DNA of 64,000 bases, from contig NZ_JALBGD010000004.1 in the NCBI RefSeq assembly GCF_023507705.1, positions 1 to 64,000 on the forward strand, in the 5' to 3' direction. The stretch's first letter is position 1, and the number at the start of each line of letters is the position of its first letter. The DNA comes from Stappia sp. WLB 29 (GTDB lineage: Bacteria; Pseudomonadota; Alphaproteobacteria; Rhizobiales; Stappiaceae). Made by a program: the position numbers and the translations under genes. The notes under the pieces are model-generated. The model ran no database searches, had not been told where the DNA came from, and saw only the letters and a program-made list of their open reading frames with translations. Of the stretch, positions 5,219 to 31,593 are shown one piece after another.

Positions 5219-5243
5219 GGTCGTTTCTCCATACGGCTTCCGG

Positions 5244-6872: not shown

Positions 6873-6890
6873 TTATTGGAGAATAAAGCC

Positions 6891-9363: not shown

Positions 9364-9386
9364 CTGCAGGCCGAGGAGCACCGCCC

Positions 9387-10769: not shown

Positions 10770-10780
10770 TTCCCGTTCGA

Positions 10781-13069: not shown

Positions 13070-13319
13070 CCAGAAGTCCTCCACTGTCGATGGAACGGTA
13101 GCGTTTCAACCCGTGAGTGAGAAGGGATCGAGGCGAGCTTCACCGGGGCGTTTCTGACTGATTTCGGGGGCAGAGACGAAGAGCGCGGCACCGCCTCTCG
13201 CACGCCGCCGAAACGAAGGCATTCGCTTTGATCCATTGCGTCTTCCGGTTGGTCTGCGCGGCGCGAAACAGGCCGCTGGCTCGCACTGGGAGGGCTGCGA
13301 GAAGCATAGGAGACACAAC

Positions 13320-14231: not shown

Positions 14232-14274
14232 CTTTCAATGGCGGCGCCTGGCGGCGGGAAGCTTGCCGATGGAT

Positions 14275-14979: not shown

Positions 14980-16004
14980 GCCTCTCCTCCCGAACCGTGA
15001 CCGGCCCGCGCCGCTCTCGCCGTCAGGATATGTTCGAGATCCTTCAGCGCGGCGGCCGCGGTGGCGAGAGGCTCCGTGCCGGATCCGATCGCGATCGTCT
15101 CGCCCATGGCGTCCGTCGTGATGCGGATCGCCTTGTTCTTTCCCGACACATGCGCGAACGGGTCGGTCATCGGGTAGGTCCGGACGCCGACGGCCGCCCG
15201 CGTCGCCCCGTCCGTCCGGACGAGGCTCCCGACGAGTTTTGGAACGAGACGCTGTTTTCGCCATGCAGCGATGCACTGCTCCGTGACCGATTGAATGCCC
15301 TCGACGACCAGGTCGTCCATCGTCAGGTCGGCATCGAGGCCGAAATTGGCGATGAGGATGAGCTTGCTGGCGGTGTCCCAGCCTTCGGTGTCGTTGCGCG
15401 GGTCGGCTTCCGCGAAGCCGCCTGCCTGGGCGCGCGCCAGCGCCTCGTCGAAGCCTAGGTTCTGGTTCATCATCGCATCGAGCAGGTAGTTGGTGGTTGC
15501 GTTCAGAATGCCCTCGATTTCGAGCACCTCGCAGCCTCTCAGGCTGTGCTCGAGGAGATCGATCGTCGGCAGCGCGGCGGCAGCGGCGCCGCTGAGTTTC
15601 AGCATCGCGCCCGAGGAGCGCGCCAAGTCCCGCAGGTCCGGTCCGCTGTGGACCAGCGCCCCTTTGGATATGACGATGGTGTCGCGCCCCGCCGAGAGGG
15701 CGGATCGGAGATAGGCGAGACCGGGCCCCCCGGTTCGAAAATCGCTGGGCCCCGCCTCGATGAGAATGTCGGCGCCGCTCGCCTCGATGAAGGCCGGGCC
15801 GGTCAGGCCCGGCTCGAGCGCCTCAAGGCGCCCGGCTTCGAGACCGTCCGGGTCGGCCAATCCGGCTCGCGATCCGCAGACGGCGACGAGGCGAATGTCG
15901 GCGTCATGAACCTGCCGGTAACGAGGCCGGCGGTTTAGGAGGAGAGTGGCCGTTGCGCGGCCCACGCCCCCGAAACCGGCAATTGCAACTCTGACGATCT
16001 TCAT
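14976..16004 (-). CDS. Homoserine dehydrogenase-like NAD(P)-dependent oxidoreductase
   Basis: A 342-residue protein, shorter than ACT-domain homoserine dehydrogenases (about 430) and without an ACT domain. The Rossmann motif is AIAGFGGVGRA. GILNATTNYLL matches the homoserine dehydrogenase GIVNGTTNY signature, and EADPRNDTEGWDTASK supplies the catalytic Asp210/Lys214 pair; Lys114 is in ISKGAL. The family reduces aspartate semialdehyde to homoserine. Being truncated of its regulatory domain and linked to a glutamine amidotransferase, it may act in a side pathway. The ribosome binding site is modest (AAGG, 10 nt). Confidence 0.85.
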   Translation of the reverse strand: MKIVRVAIAGFGGVGRATATLLLNRRPRYRQVHDADIRLVAVCGSRAGLADPDGLEAGRLEALEPGLTGPAFIEASGADILIEAGPSDFRTGGPGLAYLRSALSAGRDTIVISKGALVHSGPDLRDLARSSGAMLKLSGAAAAALPTIDLLEHSLRGCEVLEIEGILNATTNYLLDAMMNQNLGFDEALARAQAGGFAEADPRNDTEGWDTASKLILIANFGLDADLTMDDLVVEGIQSVTEQCIAAWRKQRLVPKLVGSLVRTDGATRAAVGVRTYPMTDPFAHVSGKNKAIRITTDAMGETIAIGSGTEPLATAAAALKDLEHILTARAARAGHGSGGEA

Positions 16005-16182
16005 GATTTCAATGCCTTATCTTCGAGAGCCGAGCCGGATTGCCAACGCTTCGAACAGCGCCGACCACTCTCCCGTTGCGACCCGGCTCTTTCTTCACGC
16101 CAGCGACGACGAGCGCGTACCCGAGGCGTGCTTGCGGCGGTCGCGGATGGCACGACCGCCGCTTGCCGTCGGCGAAGCCGTC

Positions 16183-17013
16183 TCAGGCGCGGATGAAGGC
16201 CAGCATATCCGGATTCACCACCTCCGGATGGGTGGCGAACAGGCCGTGAGACAGGCCGGGATAGGTCTTCAGCGTGCCGTCCCTGACGAGCCTGATCGCC
16301 TTGTGGGCCGAGTTCTCGATCGGAACGATCTGATCGTCCTCGCCGTGAATGATCAGCACAGGAATGGTGATTGCCTTCAGGTCCTCCGTGAAGTCGGTCT
16401 CCGAAAACACTTCGACGCAGTCGTAATGCGCCTTGGCACCGCCGGCCATGCCCTGCCGCCACCAATTGTCGATCAGGCCCTGGCTCATCTTCGCACCCTC
16501 CCGGTTGAACCCATAGAAGGGTCCGCTCGGCAGATCGCGGTAGAACTGCGCACGGTTCGTGAGGACCCCTTCGCGGATTCCGTCGAAGACCTCCATCGGA
16601 ACGCCGTCCGGGTTGGCATCGGACCGAGCCATCACCGGCGGGATCGCCGCGATCAGAATGGCCTTGGCCACCCGGCCGCGCTCGGCACGCGCCGCATAGC
16701 GCGTGACTTCGCCGCCGCCGGTCGAATGGCCGATATGCACCGCGTCGCGCAGATCGAGCGCCTTGGCGATCTCAGCCACGTCCGAGGCATAGGTGTCCAT
16801 GTCGTTGCCGGTGTCGGTCTGGTCGGACCGGCCATGGCCGCGCCGGTCATGCGCGATCACCCGATAGCCTTTGGACAGGAAGAACAGCATCTGGGTGTCC
16901 CAGTCGTCCGAGCTCAGCGGCCAGCCATGGTGAAACATGATGGGCTGCGCATCTTTCGGTCCCCAATCCTTGTAGAACAGCTTCGTGCCGTCATTCATGG
17001 TGATGGTGGTCAT
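16183..17013 (-). CDS. Alpha/beta hydrolase, non-heme chloroperoxidase/perhydrolase type
   Basis: A 276-residue cytoplasmic hydrolase, the usual length of cofactor-free haloperoxidases. The oxyanion loop is [13 protein letters not shown], the nucleophile elbow GHSTGGGE gives Ser97, the acid is in HGEDDQIVP (Asp226/227) and His256 is in [12 protein letters not shown]. Such enzymes hydrolyse esters or lactones and form peracids. GGAAG lies before ATG. The next gene upstream is only a decayed transporter scar, so its promoter probably lies in or after that scar. Confidence 0.9.
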
Positions 17014-17149
17014 GGCATGTCTTCCTTTCGTTGGCTTCGAGGGATTTACGAGTATGGCCGGGCGGCGGGACGACCGGTTCCGCGTGCGCCCGGTCGGTCA
17101 TGGCGGCCTCGACAAATGCTGCACGACGGGCGGCCGATCGCCGACTGGA

Positions 17150-18252: not shown

Positions 18253-18265
18253 TTGCAAGATGCAA
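18253..18265. promoter_or_regulatory. Putative MarR operator TTGCA-AGA-TGCAA upstream of the methyltransferase operon
   Basis: A perfect 5-bp inverted repeat with a 3-nt spacer. The same TTGCA-N3-TGCAA core, extended to 7-bp arms, covers the start codon of marR at 25524-25540. It abuts a TTGACA (18266-18271) that could be a -35 box, though no -10 at ideal spacing is evident (TATCAG lies 14 nt on). More TGCA repeats lie just upstream (18235-18245). Binding would block or adjust transcription of the cluster that starts at 18640. Confidence 0.6.
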
Positions 18266-18271
18266 TTGACA

Positions 18272-18639: not shown

Positions 18640-19440
18640 ATGTATGCCGATACAAAGATTGACTCTCCGTCGCTGGAATTCACGGGAAAGCGGTCTTCGG
18701 ACTACCGGAGTGCGCTGTCGGACTACAGCGATGCCTGGCTTCCCGATATCGCTTGCATGAAGCGCTTTCTGAACCCGGCACCGGGCGAACGCATCCTGGA
18801 GGTCGGCGCGGGAAATGGCTATTTCAGCACCGCCATCGCAGATTACCTCGGTCCAAACGGTCTTCTGGTCGCCAGCGATCCCTCCACTGAGCAGCTTTCG
18901 GATCTGGAAAGCCAGAGCGAGCACGGCAACATCCGTGTTGTGCCGGCCTCCGCCGATACGCTCGATATCAATTTCAGCGGGTTCGATGCGATCTGGAGCC
19001 GGGGGGCGATCCACCACGTCACCGACAAGACCTCGGCCTTCACCCGCTTTGCGCAGGTGGTGCGCCCAGGAGGGCGCCTGGTCATCAATGACATTTTCGC
19101 CGGCACGCCGCTCGCCCGCTACTTCGACGCCTTCATAGCGCGAAGCTGTTCCACCGGTCACGAAGTGGCCTATCTCTCGCACGAATTCGCCGAAAGCCTG
19201 TGCCAACTGACAGGATGGGGTGCGCCGGTCTTCCACGAGATGGTCACCCCCTGGGAATTCAGAAAGCGCGAGGATATCGGCCGCTTCCTGCAGCTCCTGT
19301 TCTCCGCCAAACCCGAATACACGGCCGAAGACTGCCTGGCGGCGGCTGATCGGCATCTGAGCATCAGCCAAACCACGTCCGGCTGGGCACTCATGTGGCC
19401 CATGACGGTGATGGTGGCGGTTCGCCCGGCCCATGGTTGA
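18640..19440 (+). CDS. Class I SAM-dependent methyltransferase
   Basis: A 266-residue enzyme with motif I at ILEVGAGNG (residues 52-60), the acidic ribose contact Asp80 in VASDPS, FDAIWSRGAIHHV as the post-II region, and RPGGRLVINDIF as the post-III region. The substrate is not given by sequence. It is the first gene of the cluster and the next gene, 6 bp on, makes phenylpyruvate, so a C- or O-methylation of an aromatic 2-keto acid or its product is a reasonable guess (phenylpyruvate C-methyltransferases such as MppJ are known), not a fact. AGAAGGA lies 8 nt before ATG 18640. Confidence 0.85.
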   Translation: MYADTKIDSPSLEFTGKRSSDYRSALSDYSDAWLPDIACMKRFLNPAPGERILEVGAGNGYFSTAIADYLGPNGLLVASDPSTEQLSDLESQSEHGNIRVVPASADTLDINFSGFDAIWSRGAIHHVTDKTSAFTRFAQVVRPGGRLVINDIFAGTPLARYFDAFIARSCSTGHEVAYLSHEFAESLCQLTGWGAPVFHEMVTPWEFRKREDIGRFLQLLFSAKPEYTAEDCLAAADRHLSISQTTSGWALMWPMTVMVAVRPAHG

Positions 19441-19446
19441 CGGACG

Positions 19447-20604
19447 ATGACGAGGATCCTCGCTATGCCCAGATGCCAGAAGACGAAAGGGCTCGGCGCC
19501 GATGGCGCGTCACGTCGCACCGGCATCCAGCCTCGCTGGCGCCATCGGCCGAACCTGTCGAATGCCCTCGCCCCGACGGGAGAACATGTCGTGCTGAAAT
19601 CCCATGAAGCCGGTCTGAGACGACTGGCGGGCAGGGGAGTTCCGCGACCCACCAGCCGTCCACCGGCCGGACCGGCAGGAAGGCTGGATCCCGATATTGT
19701 AATGTACCACGGCAGTGCCGGCGCCTTCGCCCATATCGCGTGCCGAACCGCCTTTCCCCAGGCCCGCAGCATCGCCTGTGCCAGTCTTCTCGATGTCATC
19801 GATGCGGTGCGAGCGGGAAAGGCGGATGCGGCGGTTCTGCCGTGCGAAAATCTTCTGGCCGGGCGGGTGCCCGATATCCACCTGCTTCTGCCGGAAATCG
19901 GCCTGTCGATCGTCGGCGAGATTTTCCTGCCCATCGAGCTGCATCTGGTGGCGCCGGAGGGCTGGTCGCTCGAAGAGGTCCGGCGGGTGCATTCGCACCC
20001 GGTTGCACTGAGGCAGGTTCGCCGCTTCCTTTCCGCACGTGGACTGACCCCGGTGGAGCAGGGGAACACGGCCACGGCCGCCGCCCTGTTGCGCCAGACG
20101 GGCGACCGTGCGGACGCGGCGGTGGCGTCAGAACTTGCCGCGCAGACCTACGGCCTGACGATCCTGCAGCGAAACATCGAAGACAATCCCTTCAACATGA
20201 CCCGCTTCTACGTACTGGCATGCGAGCCGGTCGTCCCCGCGCCGCAGGAGCAGGACATCCTGACCTGTGTGCTCTTCGAGGTACGCAACACCCCTGGCGC
20301 TCTCTTCCACGCTGTAGGTGGCTTTGCCCACGGCGGCATCAACCTGACCAGGCTGGAAAGCTATCTGGTCGACGGACAATTCGTGGCGACCCGCTTCCTC
20401 TGCGAGTTCGAGGGCCACCCCTATCACCCGCATGTCGGCCGCGCGCTCGACACCCTCAAGAGGCACAGCACGAGCTACGCCATCCTGGGGACATTTCCCA
20501 TGCACGATACGGGGGCGAGAAGACGCGCGGACACGGAGCCGACGACCTGCGGGACCGATCCGCAGGCTCATGCACTCGATGAAACCGGGCGGAGGGGAGT
20601 GTAG
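19447..20604 (+). CDS. pheA: Prephenate dehydratase with ACT domain
   Basis: A 385-residue protein. The PDT domain starts near residue 85 (MYHGSAGAFAHIAC) and contains ADAAVLPCENLLAGRV and the catalytic NMTRFYVLA, with the Thr-Arg-Phe triplet. The ACT domain follows (NTPGALFHAVGGFAHGGINLTRLESYLV), as in alphaproteobacterial PheA. It converts prephenate to phenylpyruvate, and ACT normally binds Phe. The N-terminus is uncertain: ATG 19447 lies 6 bp after the methyltransferase stop and gives 80 extra residues, while GTG 19591 has GGGAG at 8 nt and gives a shorter protein. It is probably a second, cluster-specific copy, as a housekeeping PheA would not normally sit in such a cluster. Confidence 0.87.
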   Translation: MTRILAMPRCQKTKGLGADGASRRTGIQPRWRHRPNLSNALAPTGEHVVLKSHEAGLRRLAGRGVPRPTSRPPAGPAGRLDPDIVMYHGSAGAFAHIACRTAFPQARSIACASLLDVIDAVRAGKADAAVLPCENLLAGRVPDIHLLLPEIGLSIVGEIFLPIELHLVAPEGWSLEEVRRVHSHPVALRQVRRFLSARGLTPVEQGNTATAAALLRQTGDRADAAVASELAAQTYGLTILQRNIEDNPFNMTRFYVLACEPVVPAPQEQDILTCVLFEVRNTPGALFHAVGGFAHGGINLTRLESYLVDGQFVATRFLCEFEGHPYHPHVGRALDTLKRHSTSYAILGTFPMHDTGARRRADTEPTTCGTDPQAHALDETGRRGV

Positions 20605-20975
20605 TGGCGAATGAGGCCTTCCTGCAGTCGGCCGCTCCCGACGCGCTTGAGACGGTCATCTCCATCCTCTCGGCCCGGCTCGACAAGCGAGGGTCGACCG
20701 CCCCGCCGTTGCGCGAACAGCATGGTCGCGATTCCAGCTACAGGCCGGCCTATCCACCGGATGCGGTCGCCCTTCCCTCCTCGCGCGCCGCGATCGACTG
20801 TGCCGTCGCGATCATGGGCTCCGGCATTCCGGTCGCGCGGATCGAATGTCTCGCCGAAGAGCACGGGAGCGCGGGCGTGTGCGCCATGGCGGCGGTCAAG
20901 CGCGCCTTCGATCCGCGCAACATCCTCAATCCGGGAAAAGTGGTCGAGGCGGAAGAAACGCCGCCATTCATCTGA
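20604..20975 (+). pseudogene. Internally deleted FAD-linked oxidase (GlcD/D-lactate dehydrogenase type)
   Basis: A 123-residue open frame that begins like an FAD-linked oxidase (LREQHGRDSSYRPAYPPDAV, the segment just before the FAD-binding fold) and then jumps to the family C-terminus (EEHGSAGVCAMAAVKRAFDP, NILNPGKVVEA). Full-length members have about 460-490 residues, so some 340 residues with the entire FAD and substrate domains are missing, without frame loss. GTG 20604 overlaps the pheA stop by 1 bp and follows GGAGGGGAG, so it may still be translated. A D-2-hydroxyacid dehydrogenase was probably here once. No activity is expected from this product. Confidence 0.75.
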
Positions 20976-20996
20976 ACGGGAGGATCAGCCGAAACG

Positions 20997-22238
20997 ATGA
21001 ACAACAATCCCCAGTCGATCGCCGACTTTCGCGAACTGGCGCGACGGCGGCTGCCCCGCTTCGTCTTCGATTTCATCGACGGCGGCAGCGGCAGCGAGAA
21101 CACCCTGGCGGAAAACCGGGCCGCGCTCGACCGCATTCGCCTTCTCGGCAGTGCACCCATCGACGTCAGCGACTGCTCGCAATCCGTCACGTTGTTCGGT
21201 CATGACCATGCCATGCCGGTCATTGTCGGCCCGACCGGGCTGGCCGGCGTCGCCTGGCCGCGCGGCGATATCGATCTGGCGCGAGCTGCCGGGTCCGCGG
21301 GAATTCCCTTCGTCATGAGCACGGCCGCCACCGCCACGATGGAGGAGGTTGCCGAGGTGGGCGACGGCATCAAGTGGTTCCAGCTCTACATCTTCAAGAA
21401 TCGCGACGTCAGTCTGCGGCTCGTTTCGAAGGCGAGGGCCCTCGGCTTCAAGGCGCTGGAGGTCACGGTCGACAACGCCATTCCGGGCCGTCGCCTGCGG
21501 GATGCCAGAAACGGCTTTTCCCTGCCTTTCCGCTGGACGGCGACAAAGCTGGCCAGCCTCGCCGCCCACCCGGCCTGGAGCCTGCGCATGGCGCGTGCCG
21601 GTGCCCCCAGGCTGGAGGTGATGGCCGCGGAACTGGGGCTTCAGCAGACGGACACGATCGCGGAACTCATGCAGTCCCAGCTCGATCCTTCCGTCGGATG
21701 GGAGGACATCAAGTGGGTGCGCGACGTCTGGGATGGGCCGCTTCTCGTAAAGGGCATGCTCGATCCCGGCCAGGTGGCCAAGGCGCTCGAAATCGGCGTG
21801 GACGGTCTCGTCATCTCCAACCATGGCGGGCGACAGCTCGACGGCGCGGTCGCCACGATCGACATCCTGCCCGAGTTCAGGTCGGAGGCAGGATCGCGCC
21901 TCACCCTTTTGGTGGACAGCGGGTTTCGCACCGGCTCCGACATCGCGCGGGCACTGACACTCGGCGCCGACGCGGTGCAGGTTGGACGGGCGACGCTCTA
22001 TGCGCTGGCCGGCAAGGGCGAGGCGGGGGTCCGCCAGGCCCTTTCGATCCTGAAAAGCGAACTCGAAGTCACCCAGATGTTGATGGGGGCACGCCGCATC
22101 CAGGACTTCGGTCCCGCCATGCTGCGCACCCACCGTTCCCCGCAAAGTCCGCAAGCCGGTCTGTTCACGCCCGGCGGGGCGCAGGCTGCGAGCTCCCTTT
22201 CGCTGGTAAAGGACAAACAACCGAAGACCATGCTCTGA
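20997..22238 (+). CDS. FMN-dependent alpha-hydroxyacid dehydrogenase (lactate/mandelate type)
   Basis: A 413-residue TIM-barrel flavoenzyme. The catalytic residues are in place: Lys252 (LLVKGML), His276 and Arg279 (ISNHGGRQLDG), Asp159 in TVDN, Tyr131 in QLY; VDSGFRTGSDIARAL binds FMN phosphate. The N-terminal Tyr of the family (in YDYxxGG) is replaced by Phe (VFDFIDGG, Phe24/26), which may change substrate preference or oxidase/dehydrogenase behaviour. The enzyme oxidises an L-2-hydroxyacid to the 2-keto acid; beside a prephenate dehydratase, phenyllactate or mandelate are plausible but unproven. A GGAGG lies about 13 nt before ATG. Confidence 0.9.
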   Translation: MNNNPQSIADFRELARRRLPRFVFDFIDGGSGSENTLAENRAALDRIRLLGSAPIDVSDCSQSVTLFGHDHAMPVIVGPTGLAGVAWPRGDIDLARAAGSAGIPFVMSTAATATMEEVAEVGDGIKWFQLYIFKNRDVSLRLVSKARALGFKALEVTVDNAIPGRRLRDARNGFSLPFRWTATKLASLAAHPAWSLRMARAGAPRLEVMAAELGLQQTDTIAELMQSQLDPSVGWEDIKWVRDVWDGPLLVKGMLDPGQVAKALEIGVDGLVISNHGGRQLDGAVATIDILPEFRSEAGSRLTLLVDSGFRTGSDIARALTLGADAVQVGRATLYALAGKGEAGVRQALSILKSELEVTQMLMGARRIQDFGPAMLRTHRSPQSPQAGLFTPGGAQAASSLSLVKDKQPKTML

Positions 22239-22292
22239 AACGGGAAACAGCACCGTCTTCCAGCAAGAAGCACACAGAAGAGGAACAGACAG

Positions 22293-23261
22293 ATGCTCAG
22301 CCACAAACTCGCAGCATGGGCTGCGGCGCTTCTGATGGCGGTGACCGGATCGACTGCCGGGAGTGCCGAGACGACGAGCGTCGCCATCACCTATATCATC
22401 GATCATCCGGCCATCGACGCCGCGCGCAGGGGCATCGTCGACGAACTGGCGGAGGCCGGCTACAAGGAGGGCGAAAACCTCACCCTGCACGTGCAGAGCG
22501 CGCAGGGCAGCATGCCAACTCAGATCCAGATCGCGAAGACGTTCGCCGGCCTGAAGCCCGACCTGCTGATCGCCATCTCCACACCCTCCGCGCAGGCCCT
22601 GCAGAGCACGGCCGGCGACATCCCGGTGCTTTTCTCGGCCGTCACCGATCCGGTGGACGCCAAGCTGGTCAAAAGCGTGAATGAGCCGGGCGGCAACATC
22701 ACCGGCACCAGCGACAAGCAACCCTTCGGTCCGACCCTGGAGCTCATCAAGATGCTGGTGCCCGACGCCAAGACGCTCGGTGTCGTCTACAACGCGGGCG
22801 AGGCGAATTCCGTCGCCCAAGTTGAGGATCTCAAGTCCGAACTCTCCGACTACGGGCTGGCGCTCGAGGAAAGCTCCGCCTCGCAGACCGCCATGGTTGC
22901 CGATGCCGCCGTCAGCCTCGCCGGGCGCGCGGATGCCATCCTCATTCCGACCGACAGCACGGTCGTGGCGGCGGTGGAAAGCGTGGTGAACGTCGGAAAG
23001 AAGGCGAAGGTGCCGGTCTTTGCCAGCGATACCGATTCCGTGAAGCGCGGCGCGCTCGCGGCCCTCGGCTTCGACTACTACAAGCTGGGCCGCCTGACGG
23101 GACGGATGGCGGTGCGCGTGCTCAAGGGCGAAAGCCCCGCTACGATCCCGGTCGGCGTCCTCGACACTCAGGAGCTCTACCTGAACACGTCCTCGGCAAA
23201 GGCCATGGGCGTCACCATACCCGGCGGGCTTCTGGAAACAGCCACGAAGGTGATCGAGTGA
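22293..23261 (+). CDS. ABC transporter substrate-binding protein (ABC_sub_bind, TrpX-like)
   Basis: A 322-residue periplasmic binding protein with a signal peptide cleaved near residue 25 (TAGSA/ETT). The mature part shows the PF04392 pattern: ITYIIDHPAIDAARRGIVDEL, PVLFSAVTDPV and GFDYYKLGRLTGRMA. Members of this group bind aromatic amino acids such as Trp or Tyr, or related small molecules. It is followed by its permease at 1 bp and by the ATPase, forming a complete importer. AGAGGAAC gives a good ribosome binding site. Confidence 0.9.
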   Translation: MLSHKLAAWAAALLMAVTGSTAGSAETTSVAITYIIDHPAIDAARRGIVDELAEAGYKEGENLTLHVQSAQGSMPTQIQIAKTFAGLKPDLLIAISTPSAQALQSTAGDIPVLFSAVTDPVDAKLVKSVNEPGGNITGTSDKQPFGPTLELIKMLVPDAKTLGVVYNAGEANSVAQVEDLKSELSDYGLALEESSASQTAMVADAAVSLAGRADAILIPTDSTVVAAVESVVNVGKKAKVPVFASDTDSVKRGALAALGFDYYKLGRLTGRMAVRVLKGESPATIPVGVLDTQELYLNTSSAKAMGVTIPGGLLETATKVIE

Positions 23262-23262
23262 G

Positions 23263-24195
23263 ATGAGTGCGCTCGCCATTTCGGGAGCCATCGAAGCCGG
23301 GCTCCTCTTCTCGCTGGTCGCGCTCGGAGTCTATCTCTCCTTCCGTGTCCTCAACTTCCCTGATCTGACGGTCGACGGCAGCTTTCCACTAGGGGCGGCC
23401 GCGGCCGCCGTCGCCATCGTCAACGGTGTCGATCCCTTTCTGGCGACCGCGCTCGCCACGTTCGCCGGCGCCTCTGCCGGCTTCGTCTCCGGCTTTCTCA
23501 ATGTCCGGTTCCGGATCCTCAACCTGCTGGCCGGAATCCTCACCATGGTCGCCCTCTACTCCATCAATCTGAGAGTGATGGGCCGTCCCAACATCTCGCT
23601 TTATGGCGAGGCGACCATCTTCACGCCGTTCGAGAAATGGTTCGATTTCGGCATCTGGACCACCTCCATTGTGCTCTTCGTCATCGCCCTGGGAATGAAG
23701 GTTCTCGTCGACTGGTTTCTCGGCACACAGGTGGGGCTGGCGCTCAGGGCAAGCGGCGAGAACCCGGTCATGGCGCGGGCGCAATCGGTCAGCAATGACC
23801 GCATGACCCTCATCGGCATGACGCTCTCTAACGCGCTGGTGGGCCTGGCGGGCGCGCTGTTCGCCCAGAGCCAGGGGATGGCCGACGTCTCCATCGGCAT
23901 CGGCACGATCGTCACCGGCCTTGCTGCGCTGATCATCGGCGAGACATTGTTGGGCTCCACCAAGGTGGTCTTGGCAACGCTCGGCTGTCTGATCGGCGCG
24001 GTGCTCTACCGCTTCTTCATCGCCGCTGCGTTGAGTGTGGGCTTCCTGGGTATCCAGGCACAGGATCTGAATCTGGTCACGGCCGTCGTCGTCGCCATCG
24101 CAGTTGTTCTGTCTCAGGCCCGGCGCAACAGCCGGTTCAAGCTGTGGCCGAAGCTGCGTCGCGCCCTGCTGACCGTGCAACCGCAGAAAGGATGA
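23263..24195 (+). CDS. ABC transporter permease (TrpY-like, branched-chain permease fold)
   Basis: A 310-residue membrane protein with about eight or nine hydrophobic helices and the BPD_transp_2 pattern (LVALGVYLSFRVLNFPDLTVDG, GLALRASGENPVMARAQSV, GLAALIIGETLLGST). It forms the membrane channel of the importer. Its ATG lies 1 nt after the stop of the binding-protein gene and the ATPase starts 4 nt after its own stop, so the three are translated as one unit. Confidence 0.92.
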   Translation: MSALAISGAIEAGLLFSLVALGVYLSFRVLNFPDLTVDGSFPLGAAAAAVAIVNGVDPFLATALATFAGASAGFVSGFLNVRFRILNLLAGILTMVALYSINLRVMGRPNISLYGEATIFTPFEKWFDFGIWTTSIVLFVIALGMKVLVDWFLGTQVGLALRASGENPVMARAQSVSNDRMTLIGMTLSNALVGLAGALFAQSQGMADVSIGIGTIVTGLAALIIGETLLGSTKVVLATLGCLIGAVLYRFFIAAALSVGFLGIQAQDLNLVTAVVVAIAVVLSQARRNSRFKLWPKLRRALLTVQPQKG

Positions 24196-24199
24196 ACTC

Positions 24200-24997
24200 G
24201 TGCTGAATGTCTGCGATGCCTACATAACCTTCAACCCGGGGACCCCACTGGCGGTCCCGGCCCTGCGCGGCGTTGATCTCGATATCGAGGAAGGCGAGTT
24301 CGTGACCATCATCGGCACCAATGGTGCGGGCAAGTCGACGTTGCTCTCCGCGGTCGCCGGTGATGTCCGCCTCGATCGGGGCGGCATCTATATCGACGGG
24401 CACGACGTCACGAGTTTCCCGACCGAGCAGCGCGCGGCCATGATCGGCCGGGTCTTCCAGGAGCCCCGACTGGGAACCTGCAGTTCGCTGACGGTGGAGG
24501 AGAACCTGGCCTTGGCGATGAGCCGGGGCGGGCGACGCTCCATGCGCAGCGCGCTGGGTCGGGGGCGTGAACGGCGCAAGCTCGCCGAACAGGTATCGCG
24601 GCTCGGCATGGGGCTGGAGGGCCGGCTCGGTTCCCTTGCCGGCACGTTGTCGGGGGGGCAGAGGCAAGCGCTCAGTCTGCTCATGGCCACGCTGCTGCCG
24701 ATGAAGATCCTGATCCTTGACGAGCATACGGCGGCACTCGATCCTGGCGCGGCGGCGACTGTTCTGGATCTGTCGGCGGAAATCGCGGGCGAGCAGAAGT
24801 TGACGACGCTGATGGTGACCCACAGCATGCGCAATTCGCTCGACTACGGAACCCGCACGATCATGATGAATGCTGGGCGCGTCCTGCTCGACATCCATGG
24901 CGAAGAGCGCAAAGGCTATGATGTCCCCGACCTGCTCGACCTCTTCAAGGAGTCGACCGGCAGCGCGGTCGAAGACGACCAGTTGGTGCTTGCCTGA
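24200..24997 (+). CDS. ABC transporter ATP-binding protein (TrpZ-like)
   Basis: A 265-residue ATPase. Walker A is GTNGAGKST, the Q-loop is in VFQEPRLG, the signature reads LSGGQRQALSL and Walker B is ILILDEHTAAL, where the usual catalytic Glu is present; the switch His is in MVTHSM. It powers the importer of the two preceding genes. The start is GTG, 4 nt after the permease stop, with AAAGGA before it. The gene converges on yciI-like 25060-25401 with a 62-bp gap; a long imperfect dyad there is not a convincing terminator. Confidence 0.93.
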   Translation: MLNVCDAYITFNPGTPLAVPALRGVDLDIEEGEFVTIIGTNGAGKSTLLSAVAGDVRLDRGGIYIDGHDVTSFPTEQRAAMIGRVFQEPRLGTCSSLTVEENLALAMSRGGRRSMRSALGRGRERRKLAEQVSRLGMGLEGRLGSLAGTLSGGQRQALSLLMATLLPMKILILDEHTAALDPGAAATVLDLSAEIAGEQKLTTLMVTHSMRNSLDYGTRTIMMNAGRVLLDIHGEERKGYDVPDLLDLFKESTGSAVEDDQLVLA

Positions 24998-25059
24998 GAG
25001 ATGCGGTCCCGGTTGTCCGGTTCGATTTGCCGACGGGGAGCGGGGCCGCATCCCCTTCC

Positions 25060-25401
25060 TCAGCCCACTTGGCCGGCGGATCGCTCGCGCTCCAGCTCCT
25101 TGAGAAGCAGGCCCGGAGGATCTTCCGGCACCATCTGGCGCAAACGGCTGACGCTCAGGTCCACGAAAAGTCCGGCACGGGAATAGGGCTCGTCCTTCAG
25201 GAATGCCTCCACCTCCTCCCGGGCTTCATACGACAATACCATGAGGCTCCCGATCACCCGCGATCCGTCGTCGTCCTGCAGCGGTCCGCCGAAGGCGACA
25301 CGGTCGCCGTGGGTGATCATATATTCCAGATGTTCGGCCCGGGTGCGCCGGCGCAAGTCGCCCGCGTCCGGCCGGTCGAGGCAATGTATGACGAATGGCA
25401 T
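25060..25401 (-). CDS. YciI family protein
   Basis: A 113-residue single-domain protein starting MPFVIHCLDRPDAG, with RAEHLEYMITHGDRVAFGGPL, GSLMVLSYEAREEVEAFLKDEPY and AGLFVDLSVSRLRQ. This is the YCII fold, related to muconolactone isomerase and dye-decolourising ferredoxin-like folds; the His/Asp pair needed by YciI-type enzymes is visible (His27 in RAEHLEY and Asp66/68 in DEPYSRAG region). Function is not known, and family members occur in aromatic or chlorinated-compound pathways. ATG 25401 is chosen by family start. It is divergent from marR across 131 bp and may share its control. Confidence 0.82.
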   Translation of the reverse strand: MPFVIHCLDRPDAGDLRRRTRAEHLEYMITHGDRVAFGGPLQDDDGSRVIGSLMVLSYEAREEVEAFLKDEPYSRAGLFVDLSVSRLRQMVPEDPPGLLLKELERERSAGQVG

Positions 25402-25523
25402 GGTCAGGGTTCCCCTTTGCGTGTGGCCACGCCCTGATCGCGCGTTCCCCCTTTGGCCAAGCTTCCCCATGTTTTAGGGTGTTGGCGGCATAAGCCGTTG
25501 CCATATCCTATTAAAGAAGATAT

Positions 25524-25540
25524 GATTGCAAAATGCAATC
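25524..25540. promoter_or_regulatory. Putative MarR operator over the marR start codon
   Basis: GATTGCA-AAA-TGCAATC, a perfect 7-bp inverted repeat with a 3-nt spacer. The ATG of marR (25533) is inside it, so bound MarR could block its own expression. The core recurs upstream of the methyltransferase operon (18253-18265). Confidence 0.68.
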
Positions 25541-26105
25541 GTTTAGCAACAAAACTCCGGGGCAAACCGGACTGGCCGCCCCTGCCGCCGAAACCGGCAT
25601 GGACGAAAAGCTCCAGCTGGAAAGCTGGCTTCCCTATCGCCTGTTCCGCATCTCCGTCCGCATCGCCGACGTCCTCAATGCGTTCTATGGTCCCAGGTTC
25701 GGCTTCTCCCGTTCGGCCTGGCGCACGATGGCGATCATCGCCAACCGGCCTGGCGTCAGCGCCAAGGAAATCTGCCAGGCGGGGGGGCTCGACCAGTTCT
25801 CCGTCTCGCGCGCCATCAAGCAACTCGTCGAGCTCGGCTATGCCCAGCGTCAGAACGGGCGCACCGATCGCCGTTACGCGGCGATCGAGCTTTCGAAGAG
25901 CGGCTGGGCTGCGTTCACGGAAATTTCCGATCTGGCGAGACGTCTCGACCAGGAACTGACCGGCGCCGTCTCGCAAGAAGAATTGGCAATGCTGGATTCC
26001 ATCCTCACCAAACTGGACAACGCCAGCGCGGGCATCATGGCGCGTGGCTGGCGGGGCGGGGCGCGGGAGAAGTCGGAGCCGGACGGACAAAAGACAGGCG
26101 ACTGA
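25533..26105 (+). CDS. MarR family transcriptional regulator
   Basis: A 190-residue MarR protein. The winged helix is at VSAKEICQAGGLDQFSVSRAIKQLVELGYAQRQ and NGRTDRRYAAIELSKSGW (wing), residues about 73-128. The N-terminal dimerisation helix is ESWLPYRLFRISVRIADVLN. It probably represses itself and the aromatic cluster through the TTGCA-N3-TGCAA sites. The start could be ATG 25533, which lies in the operator, or ATG 25599 (MDEKLQLES); neither has a strong ribosome binding site. It is followed by the EamA exporter and RidA genes on the same strand. Confidence 0.9.
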   Translation: MQSFSNKTPGQTGLAAPAAETGMDEKLQLESWLPYRLFRISVRIADVLNAFYGPRFGFSRSAWRTMAIIANRPGVSAKEICQAGGLDQFSVSRAIKQLVELGYAQRQNGRTDRRYAAIELSKSGWAAFTEISDLARRLDQELTGAVSQEELAMLDSILTKLDNASAGIMARGWRGGAREKSEPDGQKTGD

Positions 26106-26161
26106 ACGGGCTCGCCCGGGTTTCGACGCCCGCCCCAGGCCTGCAATCACGAAGGGCAGAC

Positions 26162-27064
26162 ATGCGCGCGCTTCTATTTCTGGCCACCGCGGTCCTGTGG
26201 GGCAGCAGTGCCATTGTGACCAGCCAGCAGGCGATATCGGGCGCGCCGGAAGTTTCGGTCGGCTACCGGATGGCGCTCGTGAGCTTCGTCATGTTCGCCT
26301 GGAGCATCGCGGAAGGTCACGACATTCGCCTGCGGGCGATCGATCGCCCCTGGGTCGCCCTGCAGGGGGTGCTGTTCTTCGGACTTGCCTTCATCACCTT
26401 CTATCATTCCACGACACTGATCCCCTCCGGTATCGCGGCGCTGATCCTGTCGACGTCACCCCTGTTCGCCGCGTTCGCCGGAAGGATTTTCCTGTCCGCG
26501 CCGGTAACTGGACGCATGCTTGCCGGCATCTGCTCCGGGATTGTCGGCCTCGCGGTGATCGCAGGTCCGCAGTTCGCCCGGCTATCTTCCGGCGGCGACA
26601 CCATCGTCGGCGTCGTGCTGGCGCTGGCGGCGGCCGCCTGCACGGGATGCGGCACGGTCGTCGCCATGCGAAACCAGCAAGCGGGCATCCCCATCTGCGT
26701 CCTGATGAGCTGGGCGGCACTTTGTGGCGCGCTCTTTTCGTTTGCAATGGCGCTTATCGGCAACCTCAGCTTTGCGGTCGACGTCTCGCTCGCCTATCTC
26801 GCCGGACTCGCCTATCTGGCGATCATCGCATCCTGCATCACCTTCTTCATGTATTTCAGCCTCGTGCATCGCATCGGTGCGGCGAGCGCCTCCTACACGC
26901 TGGCCCTTGTGCCGGTGGTGGCGCTGCTGCTGTCCGCACTGTTCGAGAACCTGACGATCAACGCTTACGTGCTGAGCGGGGGGGTGGCGGTGCTTGTGGG
27001 CAACGTTCTGGTGCTCAGCGCCCAGGCCCGCCGCCCTGCGCGGGTGCAGGCAGAATCGGCTTAG
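26162..27064 (+). CDS. EamA/DMT family transporter
   Basis: A 300-residue inner-membrane protein with about ten helices in two EamA repeats: repeat 1 from LLFLATAVLWGSSAIV to GIVGLAVIAGP, repeat 2 from VGVVLALAAAACTGCGTVVA to VAVLVGNVLVLSA. The family exports metabolites, often amino acids or aromatic compounds. Between marR and ridA, it may expel the substrate or a toxic intermediate of the cluster. AAGGGC precedes ATG. Confidence 0.9.
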   Translation: MRALLFLATAVLWGSSAIVTSQQAISGAPEVSVGYRMALVSFVMFAWSIAEGHDIRLRAIDRPWVALQGVLFFGLAFITFYHSTTLIPSGIAALILSTSPLFAAFAGRIFLSAPVTGRMLAGICSGIVGLAVIAGPQFARLSSGGDTIVGVVLALAAAACTGCGTVVAMRNQQAGIPICVLMSWAALCGALFSFAMALIGNLSFAVDVSLAYLAGLAYLAIIASCITFFMYFSLVHRIGAASASYTLALVPVVALLLSALFENLTINAYVLSGGVAVLVGNVLVLSAQARRPARVQAESA

Positions 27065-27083
27065 TGAAAGGAGTCGGACCCTC

Positions 27084-27464
27084 ATGCCCAAGCAGACCTT
27101 CGCCACCCATCCCGTGGTGCCGCTTTCGGCCGTTGTCAGGGCGGGCGACTACATCTTCCTGTCGGGCCAGGTTCCCTTCGCCCCGGACGGCACGCTGGTC
27201 GCCGGGGATATCGAGGTACAGACGCGTCAGGTCCTCGACAACATTGCGGGCGCCCTCGGGCGGGTCGGGGCAACGCTCGACGACGTGGTCAAGACAACGA
27301 TCTGGCTGACAGATCCGGCCGACTTCCCGCGCTTCAACACGATCTACGGCAAATACTTCCCGCAAGACCCGCCTGCGCGCTCCTGCGTTGCCTCCCAGTT
27401 GATGGTGGAGGCGAAGATCGAGGTCGAAGCCATTGCCTACAAACCACTGGGAGGGGCGACCTGA
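27084..27464 (+). CDS. RidA family reactive intermediate deaminase
   Basis: A 126-residue RidA/YjgF protein: GDYIFLSGQVPFAPDGTLV, QTRQVLDNIAGALGRVGATLDDVVKTTIWL and PPARSCVASQLMVEAKIEVEAIA. The conserved Arg (in PARS) that holds the carboxylate of the 2-imino acid is present. RidA hydrolyses reactive enamines/imines released by PLP or flavin enzymes. Its presence at the end of this cluster suggests that an imino or keto acid intermediate is made. AAAGGAG precedes ATG 27084, 19 bp after the exporter gene. Confidence 0.9.
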   Translation: MPKQTFATHPVVPLSAVVRAGDYIFLSGQVPFAPDGTLVAGDIEVQTRQVLDNIAGALGRVGATLDDVVKTTIWLTDPADFPRFNTIYGKYFPQDPPARSCVASQLMVEAKIEVEAIAYKPLGGAT

Positions 27465-27638: not shown

Positions 27639-28940
27639 TCAGTTCATCAGCCGGGGCAGCCAGAGCACGATGTCCGGCCACAGGGTGATCAGCGTCAGCA
27701 GCCCCATCAGCAGCAGGAAGAACGGGAAGGTCGCCTTCGCCACGGTGAGGATGTTGGCGCCCGTCACGCTCTGCATCACGAACAGGTTGAAGCCGACCGG
27801 CGGGGTGATCTGCGCCGCCTCGATCAGGATCGTGATGAAGATGCCGAACCAGATCAGGTCGACGCCGGCCGTCTGCACCATCGGCAGCATCACCGAGGAG
27901 GTGAGCACGATGATCGAGATCCCTTCCAGGAAGCAGCCGAGGACGAGGATCAGCAGCCCGAGCACCGCCAGCAGCGCATAGGGCGACAGGTTCAGCGCAT
28001 CCACCCAGCTGGCGAGCTGGCGCGGCAGGTCGACGAAGGCGACGGCGATGGACAGGCACGCGGCGCAGGCGATAATGAACGAGATCATGCAGGACGTGCG
28101 CACGGCCGCCATGACGCCCTCCATGAAGGTCGCGCGCGTCAGGGTCCCGCTCAGCGCCGACAGGGCCAGCGCCCCGATGACGCCGATCACCGCCGCCTCG
28201 GTCGGGGTGGCGAAGCCGCCGTAGATCGAGCCGATCACCAGCGCGATCAGGCCGACCGCCGGGGCGAGGTTGCGCAGGCCCGCCAGCTTGGCGCGCCAGC
28301 TCGGCGCGGTTTCCGGCTCCGGCATCTTGTTGCGCCGCACCAGGCTCCATATCGCCGTGTAGCCCATGAACAGGGCGATCAGCAGCAGGCCGGGCACCAC
28401 GCCGGCGATGAACAGGCGGGCGATCGACTGCTCCGCCGTCACGCCGTAGACGATCATGATGATCGAGGGCGGGATCAGCAGGCCGAGCGTGCCCGAACCC
28501 GCCAGCGTGCCGATGGTCATGTTGTCGGGGTAGTCGCGCTTCGACAGTTCCGGCACCGTCATGCGGCCGATGGTGGCGCAGGTGACCGCCGAGGAGCCGG
28601 TGATCGCCGCCAGCACGCCGCAGCCCAGGATGTTGACATGCAGCAGGCCGCCGGGCAGGCGACCGACGAGCGGCGACAGGCCGCGGAACATGTTTTCCGA
28701 CAGGTTCGAGCGGAAGAGGATCTCTCCCATCCACACGAACAGCGGCAGCGATGTCAGCGCCCAGCCCCAGCTGCTGTCCCACAGGGTCGAGGCGATCAGC
28801 GAGCCGGTCGGGGCGGAGGTGAACAGCGCCATCATCGCCATGCCGACGGCCAGCAGCGTGACGGAGACCCACACGCCGGCGGCCAGAAGCCCGAAGACGA
28901 GGACCACCAGGGTGATGGCGGAGACGAAGATCATGTCCAT
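27639..28940 (-). CDS. dctM: TRAP transporter large permease
   Basis: A 433-residue DctM-type membrane subunit with about 12 helices, including the family stretches PSIIMIVYGVTAEQSIARLFIAGVVPG and GLIALVIGSIYGGFATPTEAA, and ITPPVGFNLFVMQSVTG near the C-terminus. It carries the transport channel and couples import to the sodium gradient. It follows dctQ by 6 bp and ends the operon before an intrinsic terminator. The ligand should be an organic acid; from the neighbours, an aldarate or keto acid is plausible. Confidence 0.95.
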   Translation of the reverse strand: MDMIFVSAITLVVLVFGLLAAGVWVSVTLLAVGMAMMALFTSAPTGSLIASTLWDSSWGWALTSLPLFVWMGEILFRSNLSENMFRGLSPLVGRLPGGLLHVNILGCGVLAAITGSSAVTCATIGRMTVPELSKRDYPDNMTIGTLAGSGTLGLLIPPSIIMIVYGVTAEQSIARLFIAGVVPGLLLIALFMGYTAIWSLVRRNKMPEPETAPSWRAKLAGLRNLAPAVGLIALVIGSIYGGFATPTEAAVIGVIGALALSALSGTLTRATFMEGVMAAVRTSCMISFIIACAACLSIAVAFVDLPRQLASWVDALNLSPYALLAVLGLLILVLGCFLEGISIIVLTSSVMLPMVQTAGVDLIWFGIFITILIEAAQITPPVGFNLFVMQSVTGANILTVAKATFPFFLLLMGLLTLITLWPDIVLWLPRLMN

Positions 28941-28946
28941 GAGGGT

Positions 28947-29465
28947 CTACTCTGCGTGGCTGTCTTCGGGTTGGATGTCGCGGTCGTAGCTCGGCTCGCG
29001 GCCGAGCAGCACCTGCACAAGGTCGTCGAGGATCGCGACGGCGAAGAGCACCACGCCGGCCGAGACGCCGGCCTGCGGGATCCAGAACGGCATGGCCAGC
29101 AGGCCCGGGCTGACGTCGTTGTAGCTGTAGGACTGGAAGGTCAGCTCGATGACGTGCCAGGCGAGAAAGCACACGGCGGCGGCGGCGACGAGACAGTTGA
29201 AGACCTCGAAGACCCGCTTCGGTCCGGCGGGCAGGTGGCCGACGACCAGCGTGATGCGCACATGCGCCCCTTGCCGGAACGTATGCGCCAGGCCGAAGAA
29301 GGTGGCGGCGGCCAGACACAGTCCGGCCGCCTCGGTGGAATCGACGGTGACCGACAGGGTGCGGGCCACCACCTGCACGACGATCGTCACGCCGATGCCG
29401 ATCAGGAACAGGGCCGCCAGATAGCCGGCCGCCTCGTAGAGGCTGTCGAGGACGCGTCGGATCAT
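28947..29465 (-). CDS. dctQ: TRAP transporter small permease
   Basis: A 172-residue protein with four hydrophobic helices (YLAALFLIGIGVTIVVQVVAR, GLCLAAATFFGLAHTFRQGAHVRI, NCLVAAAAVCFLAWHVIEL, WIPQAGVSAGVVLFAVAIL), the DctQ layout. It bridges the binding protein and the large permease. GGAGGAGG is ideally placed before ATG. It lies 31 bp after dctP and 6 bp before dctM. Confidence 0.93.
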   Translation of the reverse strand: MIRRVLDSLYEAAGYLAALFLIGIGVTIVVQVVARTLSVTVDSTEAAGLCLAAATFFGLAHTFRQGAHVRITLVVGHLPAGPKRVFEVFNCLVAAAAVCFLAWHVIELTFQSYSYNDVSPGLLAMPFWIPQAGVSAGVVLFAVAILDDLVQVLLGREPSYDRDIQPEDSHAE

Positions 29466-29496
29466 GCCGGTTCCTCCTCCCTTGGCTGTTGGCGGA

Positions 29497-30486
29497 TCAG
29501 TCGAGCGAGGCCTGATAGGCCTCGTAGACCGCCTTTTCCGCGTCGGAGGCGCGGGTCATCCAGTCGGCGACCATCTCCTTGCCGATCTCGTCGATGCGGT
29601 CGAGCACGTCCTGCGGCGCCTGGTTGATCGTGATGCCGTGCTCCTTGAGCACGTTCTCGCGCTCCTCGCTGGCGGCCTTGGCCAGCTCCCAGCCGCGCGC
29701 GGTCGCCGCCTCGCCTTCCTCGATGACGATCTGGCGGATCTCCTCCGGCAGGGCGCGCAGGGCCCGCTCGTTGACGATCACGGCGTTCTTGTTGTGCATC
29801 GTGCCGGTATAGGTGAACACGTCGAGATAATCCCACACCTGCACGTCGGTGCCCGACTGCGCGCTGGTCCACAGCGCCTCGATCATGCCGGTGGCGAAGG
29901 CCTGCGGCACCTCTGCGAAGGGCAGGATGATCGCCTGGGTGCCGAGCTTCTCGCCCATCACCTGGGTCTGCTGCGAGTAGATGCGCAGCTTCACGCCCTT
30001 CAGGTCGTCGAGCGAGTTGATCGGCGCGGCGGTGAAGAAGCCCTGGCCCGGCCAGGCCACATAGGTGATGACGCGCATGCCGTTGCGGCCGAACCACTCG
30101 TCGTAGAACGGCTTTTGCGCCTCCATCAGCTTCCAGGACTTGTCGAAGGTCGGCACGACGCCGGGGATGTTGTCGAGGTTGAACATCTCCTGCTCGTTGC
30201 CGTAGACGCCCATGCGGATCTCGCCGATCTGCACCTGGCCCGACTGCACGGCACGCTTGATGTTGTCGAGCTTGATGAGGCTGTCATGGGAGCGCAGGTC
30301 GATCTTCAGCTCGCCCTTGGTCCTCTCCTCCACCGCCGCGATGAACTGGCGGATGTTCTTGGTGAAAAAGCTGGTTTCCGGGTAGCCCGAGGCCATCGTC
30401 CACTGGGTGGCCGCAAGGGCGGGACCGGCGAGGGCGAGGGTGGCCGAGGCCAGGGCGGCCGCGCGAAGCAGGGACTTCAGGGACAT
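29497..30486 (-). CDS. dctP: TRAP transporter periplasmic substrate-binding protein
   Basis: A 329-residue DctP-family protein. The signal peptide ends at ALA/A near residue 25. The mature protein has FFTKNIRQFIAAVEERTKGELKI, GEIRMGVYGNEQEMF, LDDLKGVKLRIYSQQ and the binding-site region with Arg in LRIYSQQTQVMGEKLGTQAI, which normally pairs with the ligand carboxylate. ATG 30486 has GGAGAA 6 nt before it and begins the signal peptide; longer frames upstream are not used. Tandem TGTCATATGT repeats about 90 bp upstream are candidate GntR sites. Confidence 0.93.
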   Translation of the reverse strand: MSLKSLLRAAALASATLALAGPALAATQWTMASGYPETSFFTKNIRQFIAAVEERTKGELKIDLRSHDSLIKLDNIKRAVQSGQVQIGEIRMGVYGNEQEMFNLDNIPGVVPTFDKSWKLMEAQKPFYDEWFGRNGMRVITYVAWPGQGFFTAAPINSLDDLKGVKLRIYSQQTQVMGEKLGTQAIILPFAEVPQAFATGMIEALWTSAQSGTDVQVWDYLDVFTYTGTMHNKNAVIVNERALRALPEEIRQIVIEEGEAATARGWELAKAASEERENVLKEHGITINQAPQDVLDRIDEIGKEMVADWMTRASDAEKAVYEAYQASLD

Positions 30487-30577
30487 TCTTGTTCTCCGTC
30501 TGTTGGGTCGATGGGGCGCCGGCGGGGGTTCCTGGCGCGCGGGCAATTGGCTTGCCTCTCGCTTTAGGTATGCAGAC

Positions 30578-30597
30578 TGTCATATGTTGTCATATGT
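30578..30597. promoter_or_regulatory. Tandem TGTCATATGT repeat upstream of dctP (putative GntR operator)
   Basis: Two perfect head-to-tail copies of the 10-mer TGTCATATGT. Together they contain TATGTTGTCATA, a TATG-N4-CATA dyad that recurs exactly, on the other strand, upstream of hyuA (37074-37089). It lies 90-110 bp before dctP and is a candidate site for the GntR/FCD protein encoded next to it. Confidence 0.6.
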
Positions 30598-30779
30598 GTC
30601 AAAACCGTAAAACGCGGTTTCGGCGATTCCGGCAATTTTTGTCGATGGTCAGGCGAGCGGGTGCGCGGCCGCGCGGCCGCGCAGCCGGCATGGGCCGGCC
30701 GATAGCCTCACGGGCTGGATCCATGCGGGTGAAACGGGTGCTGCGTGCTGCCGGCGGGGGCCGGCAGGGGGGCAGAGCG

Positions 30780-31472
30780 TCAGACGGCGGACTGGCGGTA
30801 GCGCATCAGGCTGCCCGACAGGTGGCGGCGCATGGCGTCGCGCGCGGCGGCCGGGTCCTCGGCCTCGATGGCGTCGAGGATGGCGCGGTGCTCGTCCTGC
30901 AGCTTGTCGTTATAGGCTCCGGTGCGGGCCGTGCCGGCGATGGCATTGACGCGCAGGCGCGGGATGATCTGCGGCCCGAGAAAGGTCAGGAACTTCTCGA
31001 AATACGGGTTGTTGGTGGCCCGGGCGATGGCGAGATGGAATTCGAAATCCATCGGCCCGCTCTGGCCCGCGCCTTCCGCCGACAGCCGCTCCAGCGCATC
31101 GCGGATCTCGGCCAGTTGCTCCTCGCTGCGCCGCTCGGCCGCCATGGCCGCGGCCTCCAGCTCGACGCTGAGGCGCAGCTCCAGGATCTGCAGGATCTCC
31201 TGCACCGCCGCATCGGGCAGCGGCGAGATCTCGAAGGGCTGCAGGCGCGGCGCGTCGTCGACGAAGACGCCGATGCCCTGGCGCGACTTCAGCACGCCGT
31301 CGGCGCGCAGCGAGGCGACGGCCTCGCGCACCACCGTGCGGCTGACGCCGAACTCGGCGCACAGGTCGCTCTCGGAAGGGATGCGCTCGCCGGGAAGATA
31401 AACCTTGTCGTCGATCTTCTGCAGGATCTGCTTTTTGAGCTGCGATGAAAGGCTTTCCCGTCGCCCGAGCAT
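30780..31472 (-). CDS. GntR/FadR family (FCD domain) transcriptional regulator
   Basis: A 230-residue regulator. The N-terminal winged helix spans residues 5-75 (RIPSESDLCAEFGVSRTVVREAVASLR, then GVLKSRQGIGVFV). The C-terminal FCD domain has ILELRLSVELEAAAMAAER, DFEFHLAIARATNNPYF and DEHRAILDAIEAEDP with the metal-binding Asp and His residues. It likely responds to a sugar-acid or amino-acid-like metabolite and controls the flanking catabolic genes. ATG 31472 has AAGGAAG; upstream in-frame sequence is not GntR-like. Confidence 0.92.
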   Translation of the reverse strand: MLGRRESLSSQLKKQILQKIDDKVYLPGERIPSESDLCAEFGVSRTVVREAVASLRADGVLKSRQGIGVFVDDAPRLQPFEISPLPDAAVQEILQILELRLSVELEAAAMAAERRSEEQLAEIRDALERLSAEGAGQSGPMDFEFHLAIARATNNPYFEKFLTFLGPQIIPRLRVNAIAGTARTGAYNDKLQDEHRAILDAIEAEDPAAARDAMRRHLSGSLMRYRQSAV

Positions 31473-31508
31473 TCGTCTTCCTTTTTGCGTCCCGCTGTGC
31501 CTGTTGGG

Positions 31509-31519
31509 CATCATATAAC
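31509..31519. promoter_or_regulatory. CATCATATAAC motif upstream of gntR (putative autoregulatory site)
   Basis: This motif lies 37-47 bp before the gntR ATG. It differs by one base from CATCATACAAC in the kdgD/aldehyde dehydrogenase spacer (38714-38724). The reverse strand gives GTTATATGATG, which shares the TATGAY core with the sites near dctP and hyuA. Confidence 0.45.
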
Positions 31520-31593
31520 AGACCACATGGCCGTTCCAGAGCGGCAGCCGCGCCCGCGCTGCTACGATAGTCGATGTCGGGCCCGGTTTCCCC

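Follow-up and report, generated by a model that had tools for sequence, protein, structure and literature searches.

Why do a methyltransferase, a second prephenate dehydratase, two kinds of hydroxyacid dehydrogenase and an importer of the aromatic amino acid type lie side by side in Stappia sp. WLB 29? The question is raised by positions 18,640 to 27,464 of a stretch of 64,000 nucleotides (assembly GCF_023507705.1, contig NZ_JALBGD010000004.1, positions 1 to 64,000 of the forward strand), which we call the window. Our analysis indicates that these genes constitute a real, conserved and so far apparently undescribed gene cluster with what appears to be a local regulon; a search of the open literature found no description of it. 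Each gene listed in the original prediction, which had been made from the sequence alone, was found where it had been placed, and two operator-like repeats accompany the set. In order of position, the features are:

18253..18265, no strand assigned: inverted repeat TTGCAAGATGCAA, predicted MarR operator 5' of the methyltransferase operon
18640..19440, plus strand: class I S-adenosylmethionine-dependent methyltransferase (MT), 266 amino acids, with an ATG start at 18640
19447..20604, plus strand: PheA2, a divergent prephenate dehydratase paralogue with an ACT region (PF00800; motifs SHPVALxQ and TRF)
20604..20975, plus strand: relic of a flavin adenine dinucleotide (FAD)-dependent D-2-hydroxyacid dehydrogenase of the LDHD/GlcD type (D-type), with two internal deletions and an open frame
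20997..22238, plus strand: flavin mononucleotide (FMN)-dependent L-2-hydroxyacid dehydrogenase (L-type; PF01070, 415 bits)
22293..23261, plus strand: TrpX-type substrate-binding protein (SBP; PF04392)
23263..24195, plus strand: ATP-binding cassette (ABC) permease
24200..24997, plus strand: ABC ATPase
25060..25470, minus strand: YciI-family protein, in the marine clade only
25526..25538, no strand assigned: inverted repeat TTGCAAAATGCAA, predicted MarR operator between yciI and marR
25533..26105, plus strand: MarR-family regulator, predicted autoregulated repressor of the cluster
26162..27064, plus strand: predicted EamA-family exporter
27084..27464, plus strand: RidA-family imine deaminase, in the marine clade

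A tblastn search of plasmids with MT returned Rhizobium tropici CIAT 899 (57% identity), whose plasmid pRtrCIAT899c bears the cluster in matching gene order, together with Rhizobium sp. 11515TR, where the copy is truncated. When an alignment of three MT sequences was run once against the genome collection, it yielded 12 loci with shared gene order, located in one Roseibium and one Rhodobiaceae metagenome-assembled genome, Oceaniradius stylonematis, two Stappia and seven Rhizobium or close kin. MT, PheA2, the L-type enzyme, SBP, permease, ATPase, MarR and EamA are present in all 12, as they are in five further loci of the window's family. The order is thus conserved in 18 loci from several families, and since homologues adjoin across Hyphomicrobiales, the gene set is a real neighbourhood, as had been proposed. 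Two divergent clades, one marine and one of Rhizobium, with MT 55-57% identical between them, both have the genes as MT-PheA2-(D)-L-SBP-permease-ATPase, accompanied by MarR and EamA. YciI and RidA are additions of the marine clade, where EamA stands behind MarR; in Rhizobium, EamA is the first gene, ahead of MT. The pairwise distances of MT, PheA2, L-type, SBP and MarR are closely correlated (r 0.97-0.99 overall; for the marine clade alone, 0.90-0.95), consistent with the genes being passed on together as a unit. Within the window's family the distribution is patchy, with MT in nine of 87 genomes, seven of which belong to the same genus as the window. When the search for distant clusters was widened to the class and the phylum, it found only methyltransferases of about 20% identity that lacked the cluster neighbours.

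Two Rhizobium loci show local peculiarities. The cluster on p11515TR-A of Rhizobium sp. 11515TR (locus positions 10900-17100) is decayed: PheA2 is gone, EamA broken, MT truncated and only a fragment left of the D-type gene; still intact are L-type, the ABC importer and MarR. At the R. tropici locus (10527-12143), a regulator of the MocR type, with a GntR and an aminotransferase domain, lies upstream of eamA on the opposite strand.

The second feature common to both clades is an inverted repeat, TTGCA-N3-TGCAA, which occurs before MT and before marR in each. In aligned DNA upstream of MT the repeat is conserved and directly followed by TTGACA (18266-18271 in the window). The window contains only two exact copies, at 18253 before MT and at 25526 in the gap between yciI and marR, where 0.73 matches would be expected even with one mismatch allowed. 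Five exact copies exist in the whole genome, two of them in the cluster; across ten cluster genomes the number varies between two and eight, with two in the cluster every time and, in two genomes, no others. In Rhizobium, repeats with 0 or 1 mismatch precede eamA and MT and lie at the start of marR. From this position and conservation we infer that the cluster's MarR binds these sites, represses the set and regulates its own gene, such that the repeat is probably the operator of one local regulon. The true start of marR may lie downstream of the operator.

PheA2 matches the prephenate dehydratase domain PF00800 with 169 bits (cut-off 25.2), and its motifs SHPVALxQ and TRF are invariant in 13 sequences. 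It is not the only such enzyme of the genome, which would have spoken for a chance assembly in terms of the original prediction: a separate, canonical full copy is encoded elsewhere, and the idea of a sole PheA was rejected. Scored against NF008866, the model of the standard alpha-proteobacterial PheA with an equivalog cut-off of 359 bits, the canonical copy lies above the threshold (464 bits), while the cluster enzymes of the window (335) and of R. tropici (321) both lie below it. Stappia and Rhizobium PheA2 are 50-53% identical, as against 41% between the window's PheA2 and its own canonical counterpart. The PheA2 proteins therefore represent one paralogous line. With the canonical alpha-proteobacterial enzyme (PRK11899) PheA2 has in common the dehydratase and ACT regions and the catalytic motifs; it differs in being an additional copy that shares about 40% identity with the PheA of its genome, scores under the family cut-off and belongs to a specialised operon.

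Next to PheA2, whose end at 20604 overlaps the start of the following frame, the window holds what had been described as a former D-type dehydrogenase. This description proved apt. Over its 123 residues the relic corresponds to no more than the two termini and a single central segment of an FAD-linked D-2-hydroxyacid dehydrogenase. Compared with intact orthologues, it lacks two interior stretches that measure about 537 and 522 bp by alignment offset; each is divisible by three, which has left the reading frame open. Since the relic no longer has most of the FAD-binding and catalytic regions, nor full-length LDHD domains, it very probably cannot be active. The gene is intact in most orthologous clusters and absent from two other Stappia-type loci (L043 and L063). 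One intact orthologue (locus L040) matches a mitochondrial D-lactate dehydrogenase, PDB 8jdc, at 1.5e-143; this structure is presumably that of mammalian LDHD. In the Oceaniradius locus (10794-13328), PheA2 and the D-type enzyme form a single open frame of 844 amino acids, which could be a natural fusion or an assembly frameshift.

As for the L-type enzyme, its nearest solved relative is (S)-mandelate dehydrogenase (MDH), a distant match of 311 bits over 377 residues, and with 310 bits it falls below the cut-off of 550 of the LldD model NF033901; wider searches for further close relatives found none. The active-site residues Tyr131, Arg165, Lys231, His274 and Arg277 (MDH numbering) are kept. 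Position 81 is Gly, as in MDH, but Ala in glycolate oxidase (PMC10153336). Every cluster member has Phe at position 26, where three outgroup relatives have Tyr; only one other position differs in this fixed way between the two groups. Phe likewise occupies the matching position in long-chain hydroxyacid oxidase (PMC10153336) and, as Phe24, in p-hydroxymandelate oxidase (Hmo), which oxidises (S)-phenyllactate (PMC6677016). Gly81 and Phe26 together suggest that a bulky hydrophobic 2-hydroxy acid is the likely substrate. MDH and Hmo are FMN-dependent alpha-hydroxyacid enzymes that resemble the L-type in the small Gly suited to bulky substrates (MDH) and in the Phe (Hmo); nevertheless, the match to MDH is distant, and no mandelate or hydroxyphenylglycine genes were seen nearby. 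It had been proposed that the dehydrogenase may link phenylpyruvate to phenyllactate. Flavin enzymes for both stereochemistries fit better with oxidation of imported aryl-lactates than with formation of phenyllactate.

Full-length homology connects the SBP to PDB entries 3lkv, 6hni and 3lft (E 6e-76, 7e-69 and 1e-59), binding proteins of the type VC_1101, CD0873 and SP1069, which hold Phe, Tyr or Trp (PMC6816091). Like these TrpXYZ systems, the window encodes a three-gene ABC importer. It differs from them in that the SBP scores below the equivalog cut-off of the TrpX model NF041285 (285 versus 390 bits), has Asp-Ser in every cluster member where the solved relatives have an Asp-Asn pair, and is encoded together with hydroxyacid dehydrogenases. 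At eleven positions, one of them Ser222 for Asn, the SBPs of the cluster all share a residue that differs from the one shared by three relatives. It is possible that such fixed changes reflect a change of ligand. An Asp at the position of CD0873 Glu263 was considered as a signature of tyrosine-type specificity and rejected, because TrpX relatives from proteobacteria, used as controls, also have Asp.

A clue to the substrates comes from the plasmid CP063167 of Variovorax paradoxus VAI-C, which carries homologues of the D-type (56% identity), SBP (47%), permease (58%), ATPase (56%) and L-type (65%) genes. This row adjoins hppD and the genes for homogentisate dioxygenase, fumarylacetoacetate hydrolase and indolepyruvate oxidoreductase. 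A YciI homologue sits between hppD and the homogentisate dioxygenase gene, and in a second Variovorax a D-type gene and YciI lie beside indolepyruvate oxidoreductase. The VAI-C locus (4400-15600) contains a MarR homologue as well, plus a RidA that follows L-type; the TTGCA-N3-TGCAA repeat was not found there. Compared with the window, then, Variovorax combines homologous importer, dehydrogenase, YciI and MarR genes with a homogentisate pathway and indolepyruvate oxidoreductase, which take the place of MT, PheA2 and EamA. The hppD context points to a shared importer-dehydrogenase module acting at the step from aryl-lactate to aryl-pyruvate, which lends strength to the earlier theme of phenylpyruvate and aryl-lactates, and suggests that the VAI-C locus encodes an uncharacterised route for hydroxyphenyllactate uptake and oxidation.

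Which reaction MT catalyzes is harder to read. The original prediction had compared it to MppJ, which methylates phenylpyruvate. MppJ and SgvM have what we take to be a Methyltransf_2 (PF00891) catalytic domain. PF00891 is absent from the nine Pfam matches of MT at E 1e-3, the best of which are the generic families Methyltransf_25/11/31/12. SgvM, which methylates alpha-ketoleucine, comprises about 340 amino acids, of which about 145 form an N-terminal helical dimerisation domain (PMC10502145), whereas MT has 266 and no such domain. Membership in the MppJ/SgvM family was thus rejected, and the comparison fails as a claim of kinship. What the window does have in common with the alpha-keto acid C-methyltransferases MppJ, SgvM and MarI is a methyltransferase encoded beside a source of phenylpyruvate; apart from the shorter MT, it differs from their systems in lacking a nonribosomal peptide synthetase and an aminotransferase.

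Two histidines of MT, H125 and H174, do not vary among 15 sequences, one of them from a cyanobacterial relative of 31% identity; model confidence is low around residues 171-180. The motif HH at the first of these positions is common in the methyltransferase superfamily. The spacing of 49 residues compares with 52 for the zinc ligands H244 and H296 of SgvM (PMC10502145), and a metal site in MT is only a lead. The best NCBIfam match is BioC, with 52 bits against a cut-off of 185. Foldseek matches include the carboxyl methyltransferases BioC and JHAMT, with RebM, MitM, YcgJ and many other types ranking equally; as 1000 chains score at Z >8, fold comparison was uninformative for naming the substrate. 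The MT family is seen almost only in this cluster. Its cyanobacterial relative, on a Crinalium epipsammum plasmid (locus 11938-12726), belongs to an aromatic polyketide-like cluster that also encodes cyclases and a tetracycline-type efflux pump; this was considered as a clue to the substrate of MT and dropped, for the context names none. That the cluster's product is methylated seems likely, and that phenylpyruvate is what MT methylates is our inference.

Taken together, these features lead us to propose a MarR-controlled unit built around an aryl-pyruvate, most likely phenylpyruvate, as its hub, fed both by prephenate and by imported aryl-lactates, with the product of MT being exported. We put the probability of this reading at roughly 45%. 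PheA2 would convert prephenate to phenylpyruvate, while the TrpX-type importer might take up aromatic 2-hydroxy acids such as phenyllactate, 4-hydroxyphenyllactate or close kin. The two flavin dehydrogenases, of opposite stereochemistry, would oxidise these to one and the same 2-oxo acid, the D-type branch having been lost in the window strain. MT could then methylate either this 2-oxo acid or an immediate derivative of it, and the methylated product could leave the cell through EamA. MarR would repress the whole set at TTGCA-N3-TGCAA until an aromatic ligand binds, and in the marine clade YciI and RidA might clear by-products. Several points weigh against this proposal. MT has no close characterised relative, and its fold matches many unrelated small-molecule methyltransferases. 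The importer could carry not a hydroxy acid but an amino acid. Identity to the Variovorax homologues is 47-65%, their substrate is itself deduced from context, and a single such locus was found. Finally, the cluster contains no aminotransferase or later tailoring enzyme, so the product is not readable from the genes.

An unlikely though serious alternative is that the locus is mainly a scavenging operon, in which importer and dehydrogenases convert aromatic hydroxy acids to 2-oxo acids destined for transamination or catabolism, with PheA2 topping up phenylalanine and MT serving a detoxifying or housekeeping function off the path. The place of the importer-dehydrogenase module in a homogentisate catabolic cluster of Variovorax fits this well, as does the decayed 11515TR locus, where L-type, importer and MarR have outlasted the other genes, a sign that this module is able to exist by itself. 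However, all other orthologous loci keep MT next to PheA2 behind an operator-like site and evolving in step with the module, and the window cluster has neither hppD nor IorAB, hppD being on another contig. MT might instead be a carboxyl or hydroxyl O-methyltransferase whose methyl ester or methoxy acid is made, exported, re-imported and degraded in a closed loop under one repressor, like a private signal. We regard this as about as likely as the scavenging operon, the two being the main rivals. The resemblance to BioC and JHAMT, the operator-like repeat common to exporter and importer and the eleven fixed differences in the SBP are in keeping with it, and so is Phe26 of the L-type enzyme, fixed against the outgroups, which replaces a tyrosine that contacts the substrate carboxylate in lactate oxidase. 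Yet the same Phe is found in hydroxymandelate oxidase and long-chain oxidase, both of which use free acids, the other methyltransferase types match MT equally well, and there is no esterase in the cluster.

Less probable still is that MT acts on prephenate or a prephenate-derived acid, for example in a CmoA-like reaction, with PheA2 working before or after it on modified prephenate. Although MT and PheA2 adjoin, are inherited together, and PheA2 has diverged from the canonical enzyme, the CmoA model is not among the NCBIfam matches shown and the catalytic dehydratase motifs are unchanged. That the genes are chance neighbours without joint function is hardly credible: each family alone is common, but the order conserved in 18 loci across several families, the concordant divergence and the shared operator-like repeats led us to reject a chance assembly.

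The boldest reading, which we consider improbable, is a complete loop for one private methylated aromatic acid, made by PheA2 and MT, secreted by EamA, sensed by MarR, then retaken by a re-tuned SBP and oxidised by the L- and D-type dehydrogenases. If such a loop existed, it would represent a new class of diffusible aromatic compound common to marine Stappiaceae-type bacteria and nodulating rhizobia. In any case, the cluster would be a locally regulated pathway of about 11 genes, present in nodule-forming Rhizobium and marine Stappiaceae, that joins a dedicated prephenate dehydratase, a methyltransferase without a characterised close relative and a predicted importer-dehydrogenase module for aromatic hydroxy acids. 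Its function can be tested by virtue of the predicted operators, the culturable strain CIAT 899 and a natural series of losses (D-type in the window and two other Stappia; MT and PheA2 in 11515TR).

Outside the cluster, the window encodes a homoserine-dehydrogenase-like protein (14976-16004) that scores below the curated cut-offs for homoserine dehydrogenase and is possibly a paralogue with another role. On the far side, a minus-strand cassette (27639-32835), separate from the cluster, contains a tripartite ATP-independent periplasmic (TRAP) transporter (DctM, DctQ and DctP), an FCD-type GntR regulator similar to LldR, and a 413-amino-acid protein with a C-terminal RidA/YjgF-like domain.

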